DNA of 25,240 nt from a virus. A program made the position numbers and the translations under genes. Below, piece after piece: positions 4,432 through 14,903 of the stretch; the first letter of the stretch is position 1; every line of letters begins with the position of its first letter. The stretch lies in the IMG/VR virus record IMGVR_UViG_3300030419_007733, positions 1 through 25,240 of that record; one strand, written 5' to 3'. The notes beneath the pieces were generated by a model. That model ran no database searches and was not told the DNA's origin. It saw only the letters and a list, made by a program, of their open reading frames with translations.

Positions 4432-6288
4432 CTAAGTAACTTCACAAGAGCCGCCTGAGCAGGCCAACTCTCCAGATAGATTCGTATTGTCCTCTATTTC
4501 GACTATCTTTTCAACATCTACTTCTTTTAATGTAGCAACATATTTCTCATAGTCTTGCTTTGAACAGTCCTGAAATGGGGCTTGCTTGTACGTATGCTCA
4601 GACCATGGAAGGACTGATAGACCATTATATACATCCTTGTTTTCCCACATCCAGTCTGCTGCTAGCTCCCATTCGCTGTCTTTTATCGTTACTGTCGCCG
4701 ATACATTGTGTGTGTTCTGTCCACGGCCGTGGCCCGGGCGGACCCACTGTGATGAAACAGCGGAGACGCGCTGAAGAAGGTCGAGCGCAGACTCCTTTCT
4801 CGTAATCGAGCCCCGGGGACTTCTCTGTGGTACAGAAATAACAGCCGTGTCATGCGGCCTAAAGAACTCATCTTCGATTAATTCTGGGTGATTGACAAAC
4901 AAGTGCCAATAAATCGCCTCATTTTTTCCAACACGCACTCGCCTTAAATAATAATTGTTATGCCAGGCATGTATGCCGCTGGAAGTTCCAAGAGTAAGGG
5001 AAGTAGTGCCTGCTGGCTTCACGCATGTCGTGCGCGCAGCAGGCTTTATCCCAATTTCTGCTGCAACACGGCGATTTTCTTTCTTTACGACCAGGGCCGC
5101 GGCCTTCATGTCAAGCCCTAGAACCTTGCCGGATGCAATTCCCGTCATAGAGACGCCGATCAGTGCATCTTTTTCTGTAGTTCTGCGCCAGACATCTCTT
5201 AAATAATGAAAATCTGTATATCCTGCCTGTAGTGTTCCGATAAAGGCAGCTGCTTTGGCACGAGCTTCATAGTCCTCTTGACCCTCTAGGTTAGAGGCGT
5301 TGATCTCAGTTAGATTGCAAAACTGATATGGCCTTAGAGCGATCTCACAACAAGGGTTGGTGCCCCAATCCTTATCATTGGAAAAATAAAATCCAGGCTC
5401 GCCGGTACCGGACGCGCGGACTCGCTCCCAGATACTCATAAAGAATTCTTTTGTAATTCTATGACGCATCAATACTACTGAATTGTTCGCTCTGCCTCTT
5501 TGCGGATTGGCCTCCCACCAGCTCCCTGTCTTGGCTGCGAGCATTTCTTCGTCATCTGCCGAAAAAAGTGAAATAAGAGCAGCGCGGCGGATCCCCCCGG
5601 CAAGAACAGCATCAGCAATATGACAAATGATATCATGTACTTCGATTGGCTCAAGCTGATCACCGGGCTCCTTCATGTCAAGTATTCCACGAACCTTTAA
5701 GAGACACTCTTTTAAAGGCTGAGGGCCTGGGGCTTTGCCCCCAGAGGTAACTAGTCTGGAACCTTTCGGACGGATATCGCTAAAATCAAATCTTATTTGT
5801 GAAGTCCCTCGGAAATATGAGTTCATAAGGACTTTGACCGCATCCGCCCACCCTTCAATCGAATCAGCGATCAAAAATCGTCTAGTTCTTTTTGTGCTTG
5901 GCGGCTTGATTTCAGGTAGTTTTTCAACGTGGTGCTTTTGCACAGAAAATCCGACACCAGTTCCTCCAAGTAGAAGAAACATGCACTCACTAAAAGCAAG
6001 AGCATGATCAATAGGAAGGTAGGCACAATTATAAATCCTGTTAGGTGCCACTTCAATCGGCTTACCACCGAACTGCATTGATCGCATTGATGGGAGTACT
6101 TTTTTGCTGTATACATATTCATAGGCCTCCTCGATTTCGTCCCTAATCTGAGGATAATTCTTCAAATGCATATTTTTATTTCTCGTAACTAGTTCTTCCC
6201 AAGTTTCTCTTCTCTCTAATTCTGGTACGTAACGCGCATACTTCATATGAATCGTAATATCTGATAAAATCTTACTTGATAACTCCAC
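4432..6288 (-). CDS. nrdJ: class II (adenosylcobalamin-dependent) ribonucleotide reductase, monomeric type
   Basis: This 618-residue enzyme reduces ribonucleotides to deoxyribonucleotides using coenzyme B12. The N-terminus (YVPELERRETWEEL), NCAYLPID with C88, the LLGGTGVGFSVQ segment, NPCCE (N311, C313, E315) and FCNLTEIN (C324) correspond to the active-site cysteines, asparagine and glutamate of the Lactobacillus leichmannii monomeric enzyme; the C313-to-C324 spacing of eleven is the same. The C-terminal pair C610-x4-C615 is the expected swinging dithiol. No beta subunit gene follows, consistent with class II. It is shorter than the 739-residue bacterial enzyme. Unusual: the glycine usually after the catalytic cysteine is C314. 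The start is GTG 6288, overlapping the helicase end, with AGGAG (6296-6300) seven bases upstream. It supplies dNTPs for phage replication and depends on host or environmental B12. Confidence 0.92.
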   Translation of the reverse strand: MELSSKILSDITIHMKYARYVPELERRETWEELVTRNKNMHLKNYPQIRDEIEEAYEYVYSKKVLPSMRSMQFGGKPIEVAPNRIYNCAYLPIDHALAFSECMFLLLGGTGVGFSVQKHHVEKLPEIKPPSTKRTRRFLIADSIEGWADAVKVLMNSYFRGTSQIRFDFSDIRPKGSRLVTSGGKAPGPQPLKECLLKVRGILDMKEPGDQLEPIEVHDIICHIADAVLAGGIRRAALISLFSADDEEMLAAKTGSWWEANPQRGRANNSVVLMRHRITKEFFMSIWERVRASGTGEPGFYFSNDKDWGTNPCCEIALRPYQFCNLTEINASNLEGQEDYEARAKAAAFIGTLQAGYTDFHYLRDVWRRTTEKDALIGVSMTGIASGKVLGLDMKAAALVVKKENRRVAAEIGIKPAARTTCVKPAGTTSLTLGTSSGIHAWHNNYYLRRVRVGKNEAIYWHLFVNHPELIEDEFFRPHDTAVISVPQRSPRGSITRKESALDLLQRVSAVSSQWVRPGHGRGQNTHNVSATVTIKDSEWELAADWMWENKDVYNGLSVLPWSEHTYKQAPFQDCSKQDYEKYVATLKEVDVEKIVEIEDNTNLSGELACSGGSCEVT

Positions 6289-7657
6289 TAGTCGACTCCT
6301 TATTGTTTTGCTTTCTAAAAGCTTTGTATTTTTCTTTCAGCGTATTTGCCACTTGCTGGGGCGAGGCCAGAGGATTAGCCTCTGGAGATTCAACAGGAGT
6401 CAGCACCTTGAGCTGAACATTGCTCGTGTCGAAAAACATGGGAAACACCAGGCCATCTGGCCCATTTCTATTTTTTGCAATGAACATACGAGCGGTGTTT
6501 GCATTTTTATCTTTTATGGTTCTTGAGATAGAACAAATAAAATCTGAAATAAAACATTTATTGAAAGCTTCCGAAATTGATTCCATGGTCACGACCTCTG
6601 CATTCAGACCAGATCTATTGGTTTGTGAAGCAGTCCAAACCGGACACTTCAGCTCCTGCGCAATAGCTCTTAAGTTTTCATAAATAGATTCCAATTCATT
6701 CCTTTTCTCTTTGAAGTGTGACGCTGGTCTGAGCAAATCAGCGTAATCTATTATAATCATATCGATTTTATGATTTGTTTTTTTTAATTTTTCTAGGTGA
6801 GCCCGCAAAGTATTCGGCGAGGCAGTCTTTGTGGGGTATTCTTTAATGATCAAGGAGCCCTCAATATCGCTAATAGACTCCAACACTTCGTCTTTTCTAT
6901 GAAAAAGATTTGACAAGGGCACCTCACTGATACAACTGTCGTATCTCTGCCCAATAGAAGCTTCGGACAACTCTAGTGTGTAGTGTACGACGTTCTTGCC
7001 CGCCTTCACGGCGTTGGCGCCAAGGTGTGCAAGTGCCATCGACTTGCCGGCGCCGGTCGGCGCGATCACCACTCCAAGTTCGCCTATGCCCATTCCTCCG
7101 TTTGTAAGCTTGTCAATCCTATCCCATCCGGTGGAAACAGGATTACGCGCCTTGATCTCATACCTTAGCTCAAAGTCTTTTAAAAATTCATGTCCAAAAT
7201 TGTTATCAGTTCCTAGTCTTAATGCTTCGTCGATTAGCTTTTTTACTTCATCATAAGATGAATTTTGAATCAAATCGACAGATCTCATCAAGGCATCCTT
7301 AAGCTTTTGTTTCTTGCAGAAATCAAGAGAAGTTTCCTTAATGTATTTATCATCATCAACACGTTTGATAAGGGTGCGCGCAAAATAGTCTCTTACTTGC
7401 TTTCGGAGAGCTTCATTGTGATCGTCAATTTCAGTCCTCAAAATAGAGGCAACAATCTTTTCCGTAGGGTGTACGCCATACTTCTCCCTATAATCATACA
7501 GGATGGATACAAAAACTCTTAAATATTTTACCTCAAAAAAGCTAATATCGATAACTTCTTCGATCTGATCAGCAAATGGCCTATCTTGCAAAATAAGCTG
7601 CGCTATTGATTCTTGAAATTGTTTTCCATATTTGGAAAAACTTGTAGATTCGTTCAT
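6272..7657 (-). CDS. DnaB-like replicative helicase (T4 gp41 type)
   Basis: A 461-residue RecA-fold hexameric helicase. The Walker A motif APTGAGKS is at 199-206, Walker B MIIIDYADLL at 300-309 (D304), the WTASQTNRSG sensor loop at 341-350, and an arginine-finger-like KNRNGPDG at about 395-402. The first 150 residues are helical and correspond to the N-terminal domain of DnaB/gp41 proteins that docks primase. It unwinds DNA 5' to 3' at the fork. No primase or helicase loader gene is recognisable in this window. It starts at ATG 7657 after a GGGTGAGGG ribosome binding site. It lies between the FEN nuclease and the reductase, whose start lies inside the 3' end of this gene, so the two are translated in coupling. 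Confidence 0.92.
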   Translation of the reverse strand: MNESTSFSKYGKQFQESIAQLILQDRPFADQIEEVIDISFFEVKYLRVFVSILYDYREKYGVHPTEKIVASILRTEIDDHNEALRKQVRDYFARTLIKRVDDDKYIKETSLDFCKKQKLKDALMRSVDLIQNSSYDEVKKLIDEALRLGTDNNFGHEFLKDFELRYEIKARNPVSTGWDRIDKLTNGGMGIGELGVVIAPTGAGKSMALAHLGANAVKAGKNVVHYTLELSEASIGQRYDSCISEVPLSNLFHRKDEVLESISDIEGSLIIKEYPTKTASPNTLRAHLEKLKKTNHKIDMIIIDYADLLRPASHFKEKRNELESIYENLRAIAQELKCPVWTASQTNRSGLNAEVVTMESISEAFNKCFISDFICSISRTIKDKNANTARMFIAKNRNGPDGLVFPMFFDTSNVQLKVLTPVESPEANPLASPQQVANTLKEKYKAFRKQNNKESTSGVIK

Positions 7658-7694: not shown

Positions 7695-8669
7695 CTAGGC
7701 GCTGTCTACGCACATCTTATTAAAATGCCTAAAAAGCTCGGTGAAATTAATTTCTCCGAAGCCATCCTGAGTCATCATTTTAACAATCTCCGTCCTATTA
7801 AAGCCCGGATCAGCGTCACGTAAAGTTTCCTGTATTTCTTTTTTCGCTGCTATGCTCAAACTTGGAGCATACAGTTGCATCATATCATAATTTCTTCGAA
7901 GAATTTTTTCGTTATCAATTACGCTTTTATATGCTTTTATATTCTTTTCTTCCAACTGTTCTCTGCAGTGGGACAAGACCTCTTCGAAAGTAACCGGCTT
8001 TTCATTGGCGAAGAAAGGAAAGCGGCGAACCACAGTCTTCAAGCCAATTGAGCCGACGCCTTCAAGATTGTCGGACTTATCTCCGGCCATCGCCCGGGCC
8101 ATGGCAAAGTTATTTGGGTGGATTTGAAATTTTTCTAGTATAGAATTCTTATTCAAAATCTCCTTTTGCACAGGACGGATTAGGACGGTAGTGTCATTTA
8201 ATAGTTGAAAAAAATCCTTATCGCTCGAAACGACCAGCTTTTCCCACGCCTCAAATTCAGGATGCTGACAAATGAAGCCAATTACATCATCTGCTTCAGT
8301 GCCATCAAACATGAACTGTATTACAGGCGTTTCATTAAGATATTCTATCAGCCTTGTCTGTTGCCAGATCTTATTTTGTATTTCTTGCTGTTCTGACAGG
8401 TGTCTTATGTCTCTATTGAGACGAATGGGTTTGCGGCCGGCCTTATAGTCTTTCTTTATGAGCTTGCGCTTCTTTGAGCCTCCAGCTCCGTCCCAGCAGA
8501 CCACAACGACGTCAGGCTTCGATTCTCTTACGATTTTTTGCAAACTCTGTATGCAACCCTTCAGGCCTCCAATGGGCATACCATTAGAAGACAAGCTAGG
8601 ATTAACAATGTAGTTGCGAAAAAACAAATTGAGCTGGTCGATTATTACAACTCTTTTCTTTTCTTTCAT
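7695..8669 (-). CDS. 5'-3' exonuclease, FEN/RNase H type (T4 rnh-like)
   Basis: A 324-residue nuclease of the PIN/FEN superfamily. Acidic metal ligands appear in family order: D11 in VVIIDQLNLFF, D60 in VVCWDGAGG, E125/D127/D128 in GTEADDVIG, D150/D152 in SSDKDFFQL and D197/D200 in GDKSDNLEGVGSIGLKT; the last also provides the helix-three-turn-helix that contacts the DNA. The basic KKRKLIKKDYKAGRK stretch (about 66-80) is the helical-arch region. Such enzymes remove RNA primers and 5' flaps. Because the phage's family A polymerase lacks its own 5'-3' exonuclease domain, this separate gene probably provides that activity. An AGAGGT ribosome binding site precedes ATG 8669, and the preceding gene ends 8 bases before it. 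Confidence 0.92.
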   Translation of the reverse strand: MKEKKRVVIIDQLNLFFRNYIVNPSLSSNGMPIGGLKGCIQSLQKIVRESKPDVVVVCWDGAGGSKKRKLIKKDYKAGRKPIRLNRDIRHLSEQQEIQNKIWQQTRLIEYLNETPVIQFMFDGTEADDVIGFICQHPEFEAWEKLVVSSDKDFFQLLNDTTVLIRPVQKEILNKNSILEKFQIHPNNFAMARAMAGDKSDNLEGVGSIGLKTVVRRFPFFANEKPVTFEEVLSHCREQLEEKNIKAYKSVIDNEKILRRNYDMMQLYAPSLSIAAKKEIQETLRDADPGFNRTEIVKMMTQDGFGEINFTELFRHFNKMCVDSA

Positions 8670-9537: not shown

Positions 9538-10650
9538 CTAGCTTTCTGAGTCGATATCGTAATAGTCCTCAGCTTTGCCTTCCTTCTTATCAAAGCGCAA
9601 GATAATATCTTCATCCATAATTTCCAGAACTCTATTTCTAAACTTTTCGTTTAAAAGTTTCTCCTTCCATTTAGACGCTTGAAATTTCTCAGATGTGCCA
9701 TCTCTGTAGACAAGGTTGAACCACGCGCCGGCTTGCTTCACCGAATCTGATCCTTTGATAGCCTCGAACCAGCTTTCTTCATCTTGAATACCCACATCAG
9801 ATCCCCATAAGATCTTGAAAGTACACTGACGACCTTCTGTGCCAAAACGACTCTTCTTTAGAGTAACTTTGACTTCCGACCCTACTCTAAATCCGTTTTC
9901 ATCTTGCACAAAAGCGGCCTTTGCCTTCCTCTTTGTTAGCCAGATACGTAAAGAATATGCGTAGTGCATGGCTTTTCCACCCGGGGTTACATAGGGTGTT
10001 GTCATTGCCTCCGCAGGGGATCTGGTGATGTTTGTCTTTAGCTGATTTAAAACCAAAAAAGTCGATTGAGAGTTTGCGATTGGCACGGTAAGCTTCGACA
10101 TGCCCTTGGCGAGAATCCGTGCCTTGACTGCCATGGACGACTGGGGATTAAAATCTCCCTCAACATCGCTGATCGCCGGCGTGAGAGCAAGGCTATCCCA
10201 AATAAATAACATTCTATTATCGTTTGAGCCGAGCAGTTCCTCGATGGTCTCCAGCACAAACTCAACATTTTGTGCCTGAACATAAAGCAGGCGCGTTAGA
10301 TCGCAGCCTGCGCGTTCGAGAAAAGACGGATCAATGGCCGATTCTGAATCGAAATACACAACATCAATATCTTTTTGCTGTGCGTTTGCTGCAATCTGAG
10401 CGGCCATATATGATTTTCCAGATCCTTCTAGGCCAGCGATTTCAACTACTTTCCCAACTGGAATACCCGAAAGCTTGCCTCTGCAAACTATACTGTCCAG
10501 CCAGCGGGAGCCGGTGGAGATCCACTCTCTTACTTCCGTCGGGTTATCGTCAGCTAAGCTGTGGGCCAAGCTGACACCAGCTTTTTTATTGATGAGGTTC
10601 TTCATCTCATCTAGATTTAATCTTCCAAGCTTTTTTGCTTTTTTAGCCAT
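9538..10650 (-). CDS. uvsX: UvsX/RecA-like recombinase
   Basis: Chosen start ATG 10650 (370 residues) has an AGAGG ribosome binding site; an in-frame GTG at 10683 would sit inside a hairpin. The Walker A motif GLEGSGKS is at residues 73-80, a DSESAIDPSF segment carries the glutamate that activates water, Walker B LFIWDS is at about 148-153, and LVLNQLK plus the TPGGKAMHYA segment match RecA/UvsX L2 and following regions. The C-terminus is acidic (DEDIILRFDKKEGKAEDYYDIDSES in composition), as in T4 UvsX where it affects gp32 and UvsY interaction. It promotes strand exchange and recombination-dependent replication. Directly upstream is the gp32-type ssDNA-binding protein, a natural partner. No UvsY-like mediator was recognised in the window. 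Confidence 0.92.
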   Translation of the reverse strand: MAKKAKKLGRLNLDEMKNLINKKAGVSLAHSLADDNPTEVREWISTGSRWLDSIVCRGKLSGIPVGKVVEIAGLEGSGKSYMAAQIAANAQQKDIDVVYFDSESAIDPSFLERAGCDLTRLLYVQAQNVEFVLETIEELLGSNDNRMLFIWDSLALTPAISDVEGDFNPQSSMAVKARILAKGMSKLTVPIANSQSTFLVLNQLKTNITRSPAEAMTTPYVTPGGKAMHYAYSLRIWLTKRKAKAAFVQDENGFRVGSEVKVTLKKSRFGTEGRQCTFKILWGSDVGIQDEESWFEAIKGSDSVKQAGAWFNLVYRDGTSEKFQASKWKEKLLNEKFRNRVLEIMDEDIILRFDKKEGKAEDYYDIDSES

Positions 10651-10676
10651 TTCAGAGACCTCTTGTTGTTTTTTTT

Positions 10677-10700
10677 GAGGCACCTATATCCCCGTGCCTC
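10677..10700 (-). promoter_or_regulatory. GC-rich stem-loop between gp32-like and uvsX-like genes
   Basis: On the minus strand GAGGCAC and GTGCCTC form a perfect 7-bp stem with a 10-base loop. It lies in the 67-base gap between the two genes, 26 bases before the uvsX ATG, and is followed by A residues rather than T residues, so it does not look like a Rho-independent terminator. It could affect mRNA processing or the relative expression of the two genes. The stem is seen directly; the role is inferred. Confidence 0.5.
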
Positions 10701-10717: not shown

Positions 10718-11458
10718 CTAGGCGCCGAGAAGCTCCTCGAAGGCTTGATCGACAGAACTCTTTTCGGAATTATATCGACCGGACTCCGTAGAGACTTCTT
10801 CTGCGTCATCCTCGCTTAGAAGGAACTCGTCCAACATCACTTGAACTTGCTCTGGCGTCTTTCGTTCGAAGACATCATTATAGTCCGGAATGTTGTCAAG
10901 CAGAGTGCGAACCTCTTCCTCAGACTCCACGAGCTTGGAGGGACGACGACGTGGGGTGATAGTAGTCTGAGGAAATTGGGCTCCTACTGGCTTTCCATAG
11001 TTGATGACCAGGTCGGTACCCTCACTCACATCAGTAATATCACCGTACTCGGGATTGAGTACGAGGTTCAGTAACTCTTTGTAGGCCATCTTTCCATAGC
11101 CCCATAGGCGCACGCCTTCGCTCTCTTCACCGCGCACAAGCACTGGTGAGAAAAAGCGCTGGCGGGCTGACAGATCCTTTGCCATCTTTACAGAATCGTC
11201 AGATCCATCCTTGTAAAGATTGCGGATGAAATCATCAAGCGGATCATCTTCACCAAAATTCTTTTTAGGGCTTAGAAAGCCCGGGTTCTTACCCAGATTG
11301 TAGTGAAACCAATACTGCTTAAACGGATCTCCGTCTGCAGTGGGAAGAAGGCGGATTGTTTGTTCTCCGTCTTCTGGACGCCAGAAGACGCTCTTTCCAT
11401 TACCGCGATTTTCCAAGGCATCGCGTTTGGCCTTCATTTTTTCAAAATCAATTCCCAT
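10718..11458 (-). CDS. gp32-type single-stranded DNA-binding protein, lacking zinc cysteines
   Basis: A 246-residue protein with the gp32 layout. The N-terminus MGIDFEKMKAKRDALENRG is followed by SVFWRPEDGEQTIRLLPT, an OB-fold region (FHYNLGKNPGFLSPKKNFGEDDP), RQRFFSPVLVRGE, VRLWGYGKMAYKELLNLVLNPEYGDITD, a PRRRPS segment, and a very acidic C-terminal tail ending VDQAFEELLGA that would recruit other replication proteins. In relatives I recall, the FLxPKKNFGExxPxxDF region carries cysteines that bind zinc; here they read S, D and D, and the whole protein contains no cysteine. It coats ssDNA during replication and recombination and would work with UvsX and the polymerase. ATG 11458 follows an AGGAG site which abuts a nested hairpin. 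It is the upstream partner of uvsX. Confidence 0.88.
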   Translation of the reverse strand: MGIDFEKMKAKRDALENRGNGKSVFWRPEDGEQTIRLLPTADGDPFKQYWFHYNLGKNPGFLSPKKNFGEDDPLDDFIRNLYKDGSDDSVKMAKDLSARQRFFSPVLVRGEESEGVRLWGYGKMAYKELLNLVLNPEYGDITDVSEGTDLVINYGKPVGAQFPQTTITPRRRPSKLVESEEEVRTLLDNIPDYNDVFERKTPEQVQVMLDEFLLSEDDAEEVSTESGRYNSEKSSVDQAFEELLGA

Positions 11459-11543: not shown

Positions 11544-12395
11544 TTAATCAATTTCTTTCTGTTCTTGCACTAAAGAAGCGTAATGTATTGAATATATATA
11601 ATTTTCTTCATATTCTGTGCTGTGTATGGAAAATGAAACTTCCGTGTTCTCGTCGGCCTGGCTGGCGACAAAGGCTCTAATATCATGTAGCAGCCCTTTG
11701 TTTTCGTTAAGTGTCTGCTCGTTGATACCAAAATAATATCTCTTGCATCTGGCCATTTTCAAGTCATAAAATAACTTCTCCTTTTTAGAATCGTAATTTA
11801 CAACTCCAAAAGTGCCTATCTTCGCCGATACCGGAAGAGAGGACTCTGCAGTCAAGAGAGGCTCTGTATTTTGAAAAACATTCAACATATGGTAAACACT
11901 ACAAATTACATTGTTGATATCTTCCCAATACGATTGGATCGATAAATTATTATCTAATATTTTTTCTATTTCCACATTGTCCACAACAAACATCTTTTCA
12001 AACATGTCGGATCTAGTATATTCTTGTAGGACACCAAAGGTGATCCTTTCCTGCATGCGCGCTTCTTTGGAAAGACTAGAAGGGTCGGATTTTATATATA
12101 AGATAGTGATATCCTCAATAAGATTAACCTTTCTTAGCTGCTCTAAGATTCTCAAACAAGCTCCGGAGATAGGCTCGGCGCCGGACAATATAAAAACAAC
12201 CGGGCCCTTTATATTGGCAAGTTTAATATTCTTATAGTTTTTTTCATATTCTTCGTGTGTTTTTTGCGCAGAGATCTTAATAAATGGTTTGTACCCCTCA
12301 TTGGTTGCATCAATGTATTTGATTGAATATTGATCAAATTTTTCAAGTGAATTTGCTAGCCTACAAGCAGCAGTGCCCAGAGCGAGAATATTCAT
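11544..12395 (-). CDS. divergent FtsZ/tubulin-like protein (tentative), conserved phage unknown
   Basis: A 283-residue protein whose segments fall in the order of an FtsZ GTPase domain: NILALGTAACRLANSL at residue 2, SIKYIDATN at 24, GPVVFILSGAEPISGACLRIL (64-84) where FtsZ has its glycine-rich tubulin signature, ITILYIKSD at 96, a MFEKMFVVDNVEIEKIL segment at 131, and a helix YWEDINNVICSVYHMLNVF at 156 followed by GTFGVVNYD. The canonical GGGTGTG loop is absent; only SGA and SGA remain, so GTP binding is uncertain. The layout resemblance is my inference; I recall such proteins only as hypotheticals in marine phages. It begins in an ATGA overlap with the polymerase stop after a GAGGAGG site, so it is translated with the polymerase and precedes gp32. 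An alternative is a generic Rossmann-like protein without nucleotide binding. Confidence 0.55.
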   Translation of the reverse strand: MNILALGTAACRLANSLEKFDQYSIKYIDATNEGYKPFIKISAQKTHEEYEKNYKNIKLANIKGPVVFILSGAEPISGACLRILEQLRKVNLIEDITILYIKSDPSSLSKEARMQERITFGVLQEYTRSDMFEKMFVVDNVEIEKILDNNLSIQSYWEDINNVICSVYHMLNVFQNTEPLLTAESSLPVSAKIGTFGVVNYDSKKEKLFYDLKMARCKRYYFGINEQTLNENKGLLHDIRAFVASQADENTEVSFSIHSTEYEENYIYSIHYASLVQEQKEID

Positions 12396-13609
12396 TCAAC
12401 CCTCCTCATGGCGCCATAGCTCTTTCCTATGCTTAGGTTGGTCTTAAACCTGCCAAATTTAGTATCTCCAAAGCATTCAAGAATTTCCTGAATTAAACAA
12501 TGGTCTTCTTTCGAATAGTCTATCACCAGACTGTCGTGAACACAAAAACTTATAAAAGAACTCCTATTCTTTAAAAGATTGTTAATCTTAATGGCTGACG
12601 TCAAAAACAAATCGCTAGATGTGCTTTGAATCAAATAATTTAAAGCCTTGCTGTCGTCTGCTTCGATGGTCCTCCCAAAAGGAGTTTGTACTACCCCGTC
12701 AATATAATATTTTTTTAATATATCGTCACGTTTTAGATAATCATTCAATTTGTCATTTCTAGCTTCGGGGTTGTAAAGCCAAGAAAAGACCTTTTTCTTG
12801 GTTTCGTCGCGACTATAGGCATTTTCAAATACACTTTTCCCGATCCAGGAATGTATGTCTTCTTCTGGCTGCTTTTCTCCCAGCAAGCCAAAGAGCGTGC
12901 GCAATTCTGCGGAGTTAAAATCCAACTCTACAAAGGCATCGTTCCTGGGGACTATAACGTCTCTCAGTTCTTTATTCAGAGTCAGAATAGGAAAACTTTC
13001 TTTTGCAGTTGACAGGCGTCCAGTAACCGTTCCCCATGGATTATATTTAATATATGGCTTTGCATTTTTAATTTTGCTCATTCCGCTACGCACCTTGGAG
13101 TCAATAAAATCTAAGTTCTCAATTCTTAAATTTAGTTTACGATTGCTTATTTCATCCAACATAGCGATAAGGCTAGAAAGAAAAAGATAATTTCTAGGTC
13201 TCTTGTAGTGTTCAAAAACCCAATCTGTTATTTTATTTTTTGTGCTGCAATAAGAAATTAGAAATTTCTTTGGTACCAAGTCATAAAAACAAACGTCGTC
13301 CAGATTAATTTTAGCCTCCTGGAAAGAAATTAAATATGAACGAGCCAGGCTATTAAGGCTCTCCCACTCTTCTTTTAGATGCTCAGGGCATATAGACGTC
13401 ATATCCTTGCCTAAGCACCATATTTTTGCATATTCAATATCCTGATCTGCAAAGTGCGCACTGTAGTCCCAAGTGTGGGTTAATTTCAGGCTGTTTGGGT
13501 AGTGGTAAAGATCCTCATCACAAAAGACAGCGTAACATTCTTTTTTTCTGTCTAAGACTTGAAAAAGCAAAATTTCCTCATTTCTTGCCTTTAGTGCCGA
13601 CCAGAGCAT
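12392..13609 (-). CDS. small family A DNA polymerase, polymerase domain only
   Basis: A 405-residue polymerase. WGTVTGRLST (192-201) corresponds to the RLSS region, VELDFNSAELR (227-237, catalytic D230) is motif A, the O helix R267-x3-K271-x3-F275-x3-Y279 matches E. coli Pol I spacing exactly (R754, K758, F762, Y766), NYLIQSTSSDLF (324-335) is the following helix, and VHDS (357-360, D359) is motif C. The glutamate after the motif C aspartate is serine here, and the glycine after the O-helix tyrosine is asparagine. The first 180 residues show no DEDD 3'-5' exonuclease motifs, so proofreading would come from elsewhere, as in the split family A polymerase I recall from Rhodothermus phage RM378. 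ATG 13609 overlaps the upstream gene by 32 bases; GAG-type ribosome binding site. Confidence 0.88.
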   Translation of the reverse strand: MLWSALKARNEEILLFQVLDRKKECYAVFCDEDLYHYPNSLKLTHTWDYSAHFADQDIEYAKIWCLGKDMTSICPEHLKEEWESLNSLARSYLISFQEAKINLDDVCFYDLVPKKFLISYCSTKNKITDWVFEHYKRPRNYLFLSSLIAMLDEISNRKLNLRIENLDFIDSKVRSGMSKIKNAKPYIKYNPWGTVTGRLSTAKESFPILTLNKELRDVIVPRNDAFVELDFNSAELRTLFGLLGEKQPEEDIHSWIGKSVFENAYSRDETKKKVFSWLYNPEARNDKLNDYLKRDDILKKYYIDGVVQTPFGRTIEADDSKALNYLIQSTSSDLFLTSAIKINNLLKNRSSFISFCVHDSLVIDYSKEDHCLIQEILECFGDTKFGRFKTNLSIGKSYGAMRRVE

Positions 13610-14903
13610 AATCTACTCTTGCAGGATCTATTATATTCTCCTGCGCATCAGCCTTCCTGTGCTCATATTGACTGCCAGCCTGGCCGTGCCAATATTTTCC
13701 TTTCTTAATAAATTTAGTCTCAAAGAAGCCCTTTGTCAAGTTATTTATGTAATTAGACGCCGCGTTTGGGCCCATTAGTCTTTTTATGTTTGTCATTTCA
13801 CGAATTAATCCGGGCAGGCTCTCAGAGGTGTGGTGAGTCTTAGTCTCTGCTAGTCTTAGCTTTAAAAGCACGCGAAACCAATACTCATCTACCTGCTCTT
13901 TGATTCCCAAAACCTGTGGCGGGGGGTCCCTGTCTCTTCTTTCGCTTTTTACTGGTATCGCCATACATTGGCCTCCGGAGTCTTTCGCCCTTCCGACTCT
14001 GGGCCATGCCAATGTCTCATAAGAGGGAAATTGAGAATAAAATGTCTCGTAAAATGAAAGAAGCAAGTTTTTAATTTCTTCCATATCATGTAGGTGGGAT
14101 TCTATAAAATATGTTTCGAATACATTATCAAAATTACAGCCATATGCATCCATGTATTTCTGCGCCCCTAATAAAGCGCTATTTGTTTGCTTAAGGTCTT
14201 CATATCCCGAGGCAATATTAAAAACAATTCGCCATGGTGCATTCTTGTCAACCATGAAGCCAAATTTTTTAGCTGTATTAGAAAAAAATTGAAAATTAGG
14301 ATCTGATAAGTACTTTAGTGCAACGTCCGTTCCAGGTGTATGCCTTTCACGACCTATCTCGATCATTAGGCCGCTAGCAAAAGGAGAACATCTGTTCGAT
14401 AATATAAAGCCAGTTTTTGTAATTGGAAAGTCATGTGCTATCCTCGTTGCATACCTTAAAAATTCTTTAGTAAAATCTTTAAAGTTTATAATTTTTTCGT
14501 GTCTTCGGTCGCGGTTAAGATAATCTTGTACAAAATTTGAATAAACTTTATTTATATGCCTGCTATATTGATAATCTAAAGAACGGCCCCATCTAGATTT
14601 GTGTGCCTTGAGATTAACATAGCGGCTATTGTTTTCAATATATCGCCCACGCGATGCGATGTATGCCTGCATATCTGAAAACGCGTCAGAAACAAAATCG
14701 GCAGAGAATTGAACGTTCTTGTCGTTTGAGAGTGATTTTAAATTGCTGGGGTCAATATAAACCGCATTCCCCTTCTTGTTGATCCTTCCATAAAAAAGAT
14801 GCTTTCTCTCAAGATCGAAGTGCTTCACCCCATGTAAGTAGGCGTATTTTTCACTGTATTTGACCTTATCATCAAAAAGATTTTTAACAATCTGCTCTGA
14901 CAT
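13578..14903 (-). CDS. conserved phage protein of unknown role, last gene of tail module
   Basis: A 441-residue protein between the 959-residue tail gene and the polymerase, overlapping both. It starts MSEQIVKNLFDDKVKYSEKYAYLHGV, has a strand-rich FYGRINKKGNAVYIDP segment, a basic helical part (KAHKSRWGRSLDYQYSRH), and a central FPITKTGFILSNRCSPFASGLMIEI stretch, then PWRIVFNIASGYEDL and DNVFETYFIESHLHDMEEIKNLLLSFYETF. No enzymatic motif, signal or membrane segment is evident, and exonuclease acidic motifs are missing, so it is not the polymerase's missing proofreading subunit on visible evidence. Position suggests a virion or assembly protein translated with the hub-like protein; this is inference. 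I do not recognise the family beyond a memory of similar hypotheticals in marine phages. Confidence 0.7.
   Translation of the reverse strand: MSEQIVKNLFDDKVKYSEKYAYLHGVKHFDLERKHLFYGRINKKGNAVYIDPSNLKSLSNDKNVQFSADFVSDAFSDMQAYIASRGRYIENNSRYVNLKAHKSRWGRSLDYQYSRHINKVYSNFVQDYLNRDRRHEKIINFKDFTKEFLRYATRIAHDFPITKTGFILSNRCSPFASGLMIEIGRERHTPGTDVALKYLSDPNFQFFSNTAKKFGFMVDKNAPWRIVFNIASGYEDLKQTNSALLGAQKYMDAYGCNFDNVFETYFIESHLHDMEEIKNLLLSFYETFYSQFPSYETLAWPRVGRAKDSGGQCMAIPVKSERRDRDPPPQVLGIKEQVDEYWFRVLLKLRLAETKTHHTSESLPGLIREMTNIKRLMGPNAASNYINNLTKGFFETKFIKKGKYWHGQAGSQYEHRKADAQENIIDPARVDYALVGTKGKK

Follow-up and report, generated by a model that had tools for sequence, protein, structure and literature searches.

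Tubulin homologs encoded by phages have so far been taken to mark mainly nucleus-forming jumbo phages, and a 2025 survey described them as characteristic of Chimalliviridae plus a handful of others (PMC11835377). Assembly of PhuZ (phrog_4733; gp39 of phiKZ and gp59 of 201phi2-1), the tubulin of nucleus-forming jumbo phages, requires a long C-terminal helix, H11, and an acidic tail, and mutations in its T7 loop that block hydrolysis lead to static filaments (PMC7950403). Other members of the fold include TubZ from type III partition systems of plasmids and phages, FtsZ, and the archaeal FtsZ/tubulin family CetZ, which retains the GGGTG[ST]G signature and T7. FtsZl1 and FtsZl2 are divergent outlying families of the superfamily that keep GGGTG[ST]G and carry extra domains (Makarova and Koonin 2010, PMC2875224). 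The T6-H7 elements of FtsZl1 could not be confidently identified (PMC2875224). Tubulin and FtsZ hold the guanine base through an Asn in T6, an aromatic residue in H7 and the residue four positions further on.

The window is the whole stretch of viral DNA that was analyzed, 25,240 nucleotides of IMG/VR record IMGVR_UViG_3300030419_007733. It encodes a 283-residue protein with a predicted tubulin/FtsZ fold, and the gene lies in a replication module directly behind a DNA polymerase gene. The genes of this region are as follows.

6272..7657, minus strand, DnaB/gp41-like replicative helicase, same replication module
7695..8669, minus strand, 5'-3' exonuclease, same replication module
9538..10683, minus strand, UvsX/RecA-like recombinase, same replication module
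10718..11458, minus strand, gp32-like ssDNA-binding protein, next gene downstream (Pfam gp32, 8.5e-11)
11544..12395, minus strand, gene for the predicted tubulin/FtsZ-fold protein, intact ORF with an ATG start, 283 aa (basis: AlphaFold2 model, fold matches, relatives)
12392..13609, minus strand, polA, family A DNA polymerase, 405 aa (Pfam DNA_pol_A, 7e-14)
12400..12406, minus strand, Shine-Dalgarno sequence AGGAGGG, within the last polA codons and 5' of the tubulin-like ATG
13578..14903, minus strand, 441-aa protein without a Pfam or PHROG match, kept upstream of polA in most loci

The tubulin-like start codon overlaps the polA stop codon in the window (ATGA at 12392-12395). The sequence 5' of the start reads GCGCCATGAGGAGGGTTGA-ATG, and its Shine-Dalgarno sequence was rated strong. 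Other neighbors are a dCMP deaminase and a ribonucleotide reductase, the latter named by inspection. The polA product has only 405 residues. Pfam matches it best over the C-terminal polymerase part, and a separate 3'-5' exonuclease was not recognized.

Sequence searches with the tubulin-like protein alone were uninformative. It had no Pfam match, no useful PHROG match (E 2.9) and nothing credible among PDB sequences (best 0.37, to ferritin), and searches of the PDB using the family profile returned chance matches only. Three close relatives were found in IMG/VR. A first family profile yielded 42 relatives and a second profile at least 557 loci. An alignment of 88 sequences, the window protein among them, was used to define the family.

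An AlphaFold2 model of the window protein built on this alignment had a pLDDT of 95.5 and a pTM of 0.93. When it was compared with the PDB using Foldseek, the top 50 matches were all FtsZ or TubZ, with E values from 7e-13 and TM scores of 0.63-0.72 by query length. VIA-align placed it closest to CetZ 3zid (Z 24.7, rmsd 2.8 Å, 257 residues) and CetZ2 4b45 (Z 23.6), followed by TubZ (Z 22.6), Aquifex FtsZ (Z 22.4) and tubulins (Z about 22). The superfamily matches cover residues 1 to about 281-282, with 257-276 residues aligned, and extend over the central helix and on through the C-terminal domain. No other fold was present among the PDB matches listed. A search of viral models returned as the best match an uncultured Caudovirales protein named 'FtsZ cell division GTPase'. 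PhuZ structures were absent from the 50 listed VIA matches, which is not evidence against a relation to PhuZ.

A second model was built with L020, a member of a different subclade (43% identical), as the lead sequence. It had a pLDDT of 93.6 and the same kind of match list (CetZ 3zid Z 24.2, 4b45 Z 22.8, TubZ Z 21.9). The two models share most alignment rows, so their independence is incomplete. Across the two subclades the full-length fold matches had Z scores of 20-25. The positions of the FtsZ-like segments are kept across the 88-sequence alignment, and the fold match is far above background. The models thus predict, very probably correctly, a two-domain tubulin/FtsZ fold composed of a nucleotide-binding-type N-domain, a central helix H7 and a C-terminal domain. 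We regard the fold as settled as far as prediction allows.

A preliminary description of the window had proposed an FtsZ/tubulin-like layout for ORF 11544-12395 from the order of short segments, and had suggested a structure match over residues 1-200 with the helix between the two domains as a check. The layout held at the level of the fold by the AlphaFold model and structure search, the matches spanning residues 1-282, with both domains and the helix between them. Every segment is present and maps onto an element of the window model. The N-terminal strand-loop-helix consists of a strand (E2-6) and a helix (H8-19), and IDATN ends S2 (E24-29). SGAEPISGA lies between S4 and H4 (E66-70/H75-91). 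ITILYIKSD is S5 (E96-102), FVVDN is S6/T6 (E134-139), the central helix runs over 20 residues (156-175), and GVVNYD falls within and after S7 (E193-199). The description had also stated that SGAEPISGA replaces GGGTGTG, which is correct. Its term 'signature-less' was an overstatement, as a modified loop, GxGxISG, is conserved in the family. It was silent on the T7 catalytic residues, whose acids are missing. The nucleotide-related positions of the gene are as follows.

12354..12383, minus strand, T1 nucleotide loop, residues 5-14 ALGTAACRLA (family GLGxAGCxIA), profile-aligned to PhuZ GGAGxNIG
12240..12260, minus strand, T3 position, residues 46-52 THEEYEK (family [S/T][H/P]EEYEK), aligned with the PhuZ T3 region
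12159..12185, minus strand, T4 position, residues 71-79 SGAEPISGA in place of GGGTG[ST]G (family consensus GxGxISG)
11964..11990, minus strand, S6/T6, residues 136-144 FVVDNVEIE, aligned to E. coli FtsZ IPNDKLL; N140 is a predicted guanine contact
11871..11930, minus strand, central helix H7, residues 156-175, from the FtsZ H7 alignment; W157 and N161 are predicted to stack on or contact guanine
11820..11870, minus strand, T7/H8 position, residues 176-192, without the NxDxx[DE] acids and without H8 in the models

Profile evidence for homology is weaker than the structural evidence. At the gathering cut-off of PF00091 (Tubulin) neither the window protein nor four large gene-carrying contigs gave a match, and below it weak matches were found in 6/88 members (best E 0.0086). 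Comparison of the family profile with ten PhuZ proteins by hhalign gave a score of 44.9 (probability 78.6%) over 97 columns, with T1, S2, T3 and T4 in register. The background was 15.2 +/- 2.7 (maximum 24.6) for 150 column-shuffled PhuZ profiles; eight neighboring gene families and reversed profiles scored no more than 20.6 each, a Rossmann control (TrkA set) scored 25.8 over 17 columns, and the positive control, PhuZ against FtsZ, scored 51.5. The family against the FtsZ profile scored 16.0, which equals background, and E. coli FtsZ likewise gave no significant profile match. Most of the PhuZ score comes from the first 30 residues, as it fell to 25.9 without the first 20 residues and to 21.5 without the first 30, values close to background. 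Because the PhuZ signal is mostly N-terminal, the superfamily assignment rests on structure, and the affinity to PhuZ is suggestive only.

Many positions, among them those predicted to contact the guanine base, are strongly conserved. C11 in T1 (96%), D29 at the end of S2 (96%) and Y50 at the T3 position (97%) are nearly invariant, and H5 ends in QEYARSG, of which Q124, R128 and S129 are 100% conserved. Position 140 in T6 is Asn in 98% of the family, position 157 in H7 is aromatic in 81/88 members (W157 in the window) and N161 is conserved in 98%. The hhalign alignment places N140 and N161 on N165 and N186 of E. coli FtsZ. Since N140, aromatic 157 and N161 are conserved at the positions that hold guanine, recognition of the base looks intact. 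This is an inference from conserved residues, without binding data.

The phosphate side of the pocket is altered. The GGGTG[ST]G signature of T4 was found in 0/88 members. The common forms at residues 72-78 are G[AS]GxISG, and the window has GAEPISG; relative to FtsZ and PhuZ, the register of this loop could be off by one or two residues. The window copy is unusually degenerate, with A5, A10 and E74 in place of glycines found at 98%, 96% and 88% (weighted) in the family. A separate variant, TSCGxISG at residues 71-78, occurs in a further subclade (L067, L074, L086, L087, L095, L105 and L111).

The catalytic end appears to be missing. FtsZ has its canonical T7 acids 27 and 30 residues beyond the H7 aromatic; at these offsets just 1% and 3% of members are acidic. 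A different acid, E/D178, occurs at +21 from the H7 aromatic in 77% of members, 6-9 residues before the FtsZ T7 offsets, as part of a conserved N-[TS]-[ED]-P at residues 176-179. Helix H8 was found in neither AlphaFold2 model. Because the T7 acids and H8 are apparently missing, canonical GTP hydrolysis is unlikely, although this is inferred from conserved residues and not from biochemistry. The T7 acids and H8 also belong to the longitudinal interface of known polymers, and the protein might possibly not polymerize at all. Absence of the T7 acids does not alone exclude filaments, since hydrolysis-dead T7 mutants of PhuZ still form static ones.

The family was compared with each described system. 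PhuZ shares the tubulin fold, is phage-encoded and was the best profile match among those compared. It differs in its T7 LDxxD acids, which the family lacks, while the family has GxGxISG at T4 and a place in the polA-gp32 module of T4-like phages; the family proteins also fall about 45 residues short of the phiKZ PhuZ. No link between PhuZ and the family was found by tblastn, and phrog_4733 matched neither the window protein nor the members listed, whereas phiKZ PhuZ matched it at 5e-118. The long H11 helix is present in neither AlphaFold2 model and a short acidic tail in one subclade only. That tail, a conserved LDDQDIG/S (L020, L021, L025, L055, L058, L077, L091, L100 and others), was modeled with low confidence for L020; the window subclade ends in QEQK or similar. 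The LDDQDIG form loosely resembles the PhuZ tail DDxDDDGMV.

TubZ shares the fold at Z 22.6 and 21.9 in the two models. The family is much shorter, lacks the long C-terminal extension and has lost the signature and the T7 motif, and the named neighbors of its gene are polA, gp32 and other replication genes. CetZ provides the closest solved structures to both models, but identity is 12-15% and CetZ is cellular rather than viral. FtsZ shares the fold (Z 22.4, Foldseek E 7e-13) and has alignable T6 and H7, but the family lacks the canonical T4, T7 and H8. No E. coli-type C-terminal peptide was seen by eye in the family alignment. Like FtsZl1 and FtsZl2 the family is a divergent outlier of the superfamily; unlike them it has an altered loop and no added domain, and its T6/H7 elements are retained. 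Very likely, then, this is a new compact family within the tubulin/FtsZ fold and not a member of PhuZ, TubZ, FtsZ or CetZ.

The source viruses are uncultivated, mostly marine and T4-like. A T4-type gp23 capsid gene was found in 12/12 large contigs tested (62-204 kb), and the tubulin-like gene was present in exactly one copy in each of 8/8 large contigs. A chimallin shell gene was found in 0/12 contigs, in a search for which no control genome gave a signal. The gp23 of one carrier contig had as its closest annotated relatives LR756508, Flavobacterium phage immuto and Microcystis phage Mel-JY01, with Rhodothermus phage RM378, the cultured Far-T4 phage, further off. From this single comparison, the T4-type capsid of the tested carriers is nearest to Far-T4 phages. 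Profile searches found no tubulin-like gene in the regions examined of phage immuto, Mel-JY01 and the 484-kb LR756508, nor in the part of RM378 examined (one weak match, E 0.049). No relative turned up among 50,697 GenBank phage records in tblastn searches that used four family queries, and a scan of GTDB genomes for the family found none. Since the gene was not found in the examined regions of the nearest annotated relatives, it is likely a feature of its own carrier clade and not of those relatives.

The preliminary description had also noted coupling to polymerase and gp32 genes, and this held across the family. polA lies upstream in 92/93 loci with enough upstream sequence, and in 56 of these 92 it is within 10 bp of, or overlaps, the tubulin-like gene. 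gp32 lies downstream in all loci with room. When IMG/VR was searched with a polA profile from the carrier phages, 80/80 of the best loci had the tubulin-like gene downstream; these are the closest relatives of the carrier polA, and distant polA lineages were not covered. We consider the family part of the core replication module in a large T4-like (Far-T4) phage clade. One subclade (L055, L058, L021, L070, L103 and others) has an extra small gene in a 283-540 bp gap between polA and the tubulin-like gene. Its product carries the motifs KLVRDKIPEII ... KKLxEEVxEF ... RGGF and by eye resembles MazG-type NTP pyrophosphohydrolases.

A role as an organizer of replication similar to PhuZ, put forward in the preliminary description, remains unproven, as do GTP binding and filaments, for which there are no direct data. 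The most likely role is that of a guanine-nucleotide-binding organizer of phage replication. The protein would bind guanine nucleotide in a tubulin-type base pocket (aromatic 157, N161 and N140), with the phosphates held by the changed loop GxGxISG, and without the T7 acids it would not hydrolyze GTP by the usual head-to-tail mechanism. It would be produced together with the polymerase and act where viral DNA is copied, a site suggested by the fixed position of the gene directly behind polA. There it may self-assemble in a nucleotide-dependent manner into short or slowly turning-over polymers, a scaffold that would hold or position the replication machinery as an analog of the dynamic PhuZ spindle, but a distinct structure. 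We favor this nucleotide-dependent, self-assembling replication scaffold by a modest margin. Its parts are not equally secure. Nucleotide binding is likely, as inferred from conserved residues in the absence of binding data. A replication role is also likely, although gene position alone does not prove it. Self-assembly, for which no polymerization data exist, could as easily be wrong as right.

The most serious rival is a replisome subunit that does not polymerize, binding PolA or the gp32-coated strand as a processivity or regulatory accessory factor, in which the bound nucleotide would play a structural part or serve as a switch. It remains possible, and a monomeric polymerase partner must be taken seriously because the T7/H8 end is missing. 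In its favor are the strict one-to-one linkage with polA (80/80) and with gp32, the missing T7 acids and H8, and the failure to detect a T4-type gp45 clamp (PF02916) in eight large contigs (L026, L101, L011, L063, L020, L064, L068 and L112), though the positive control was silent as well. Against it are the highly conserved nucleotide pocket and the overall tubulin fold, whose well-characterized members polymerize, and there is no direct evidence of an interaction with the polymerase.

A second rival is a host-directed decoy, a mimic of tubulin/FtsZ that would attach to or cap the FtsZ of the host and keep the infected cell from dividing. An FtsZ-like fold whose T7/H8 end is defective could in principle cap filaments, and phage or prophage inhibitors of FtsZ exist, such as KilR (PMC12482147). 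We consider it unlikely, as in the loci examined the gene holds a fixed place among replication genes and not among host-takeover genes, and in sequence the protein is nearer PhuZ than FtsZ. That it is merely a generic NAD(P)-binding Rossmann protein, with a superficial resemblance to FtsZ, is very unlikely: weak TrkA_N matches in 31/88 members (best E 4e-5, at residues 2-41 or 65-107) support it, but they are partial, covering 30-42 residues of a GxGxxG-type stretch only, those listed individually (best 23.5 bits) fall under the 23.8-bit gathering cut-off, the tubulin/FtsZ match is full-length over both domains in two subclades (Z 20-25), and in profile comparison PhuZ outscores the TrkA control (44.9 against 25.8, the latter over 17 columns).

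A bolder reading can be put forward tentatively, with the balance somewhat against it. The protein would be a 'replisome tubulin', a guanine-nucleotide-binding obligate partner of the viral replicative polymerase without a classical GTPase cycle. Joined to this, and no more secure, is the proposal that a major clade of marine phages carries it throughout, and that surveys relying on standard tubulin profiles or on GGGTG[ST]G missed it. The HMM criterion of the 2025 survey (E < 1e-5) would be expected to miss such a family (PMC11835377). No tubulin homolog is mentioned in the Far-T4 and virioplankton polA papers searched in the open-licence literature; an earlier description elsewhere is possible.

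A divergent relative of tubulin in hundreds of T4-like loci would widen the viral reach of this cytoskeletal fold beyond the phages with which it has been associated. Its presence in all the relatives of one polA lineage that were examined would give reason to look for spatial organization of replication in T4-like phages of ordinary size. The family would also offer a natural case for learning what the tubulin fold does after the catalytic loop is lost.
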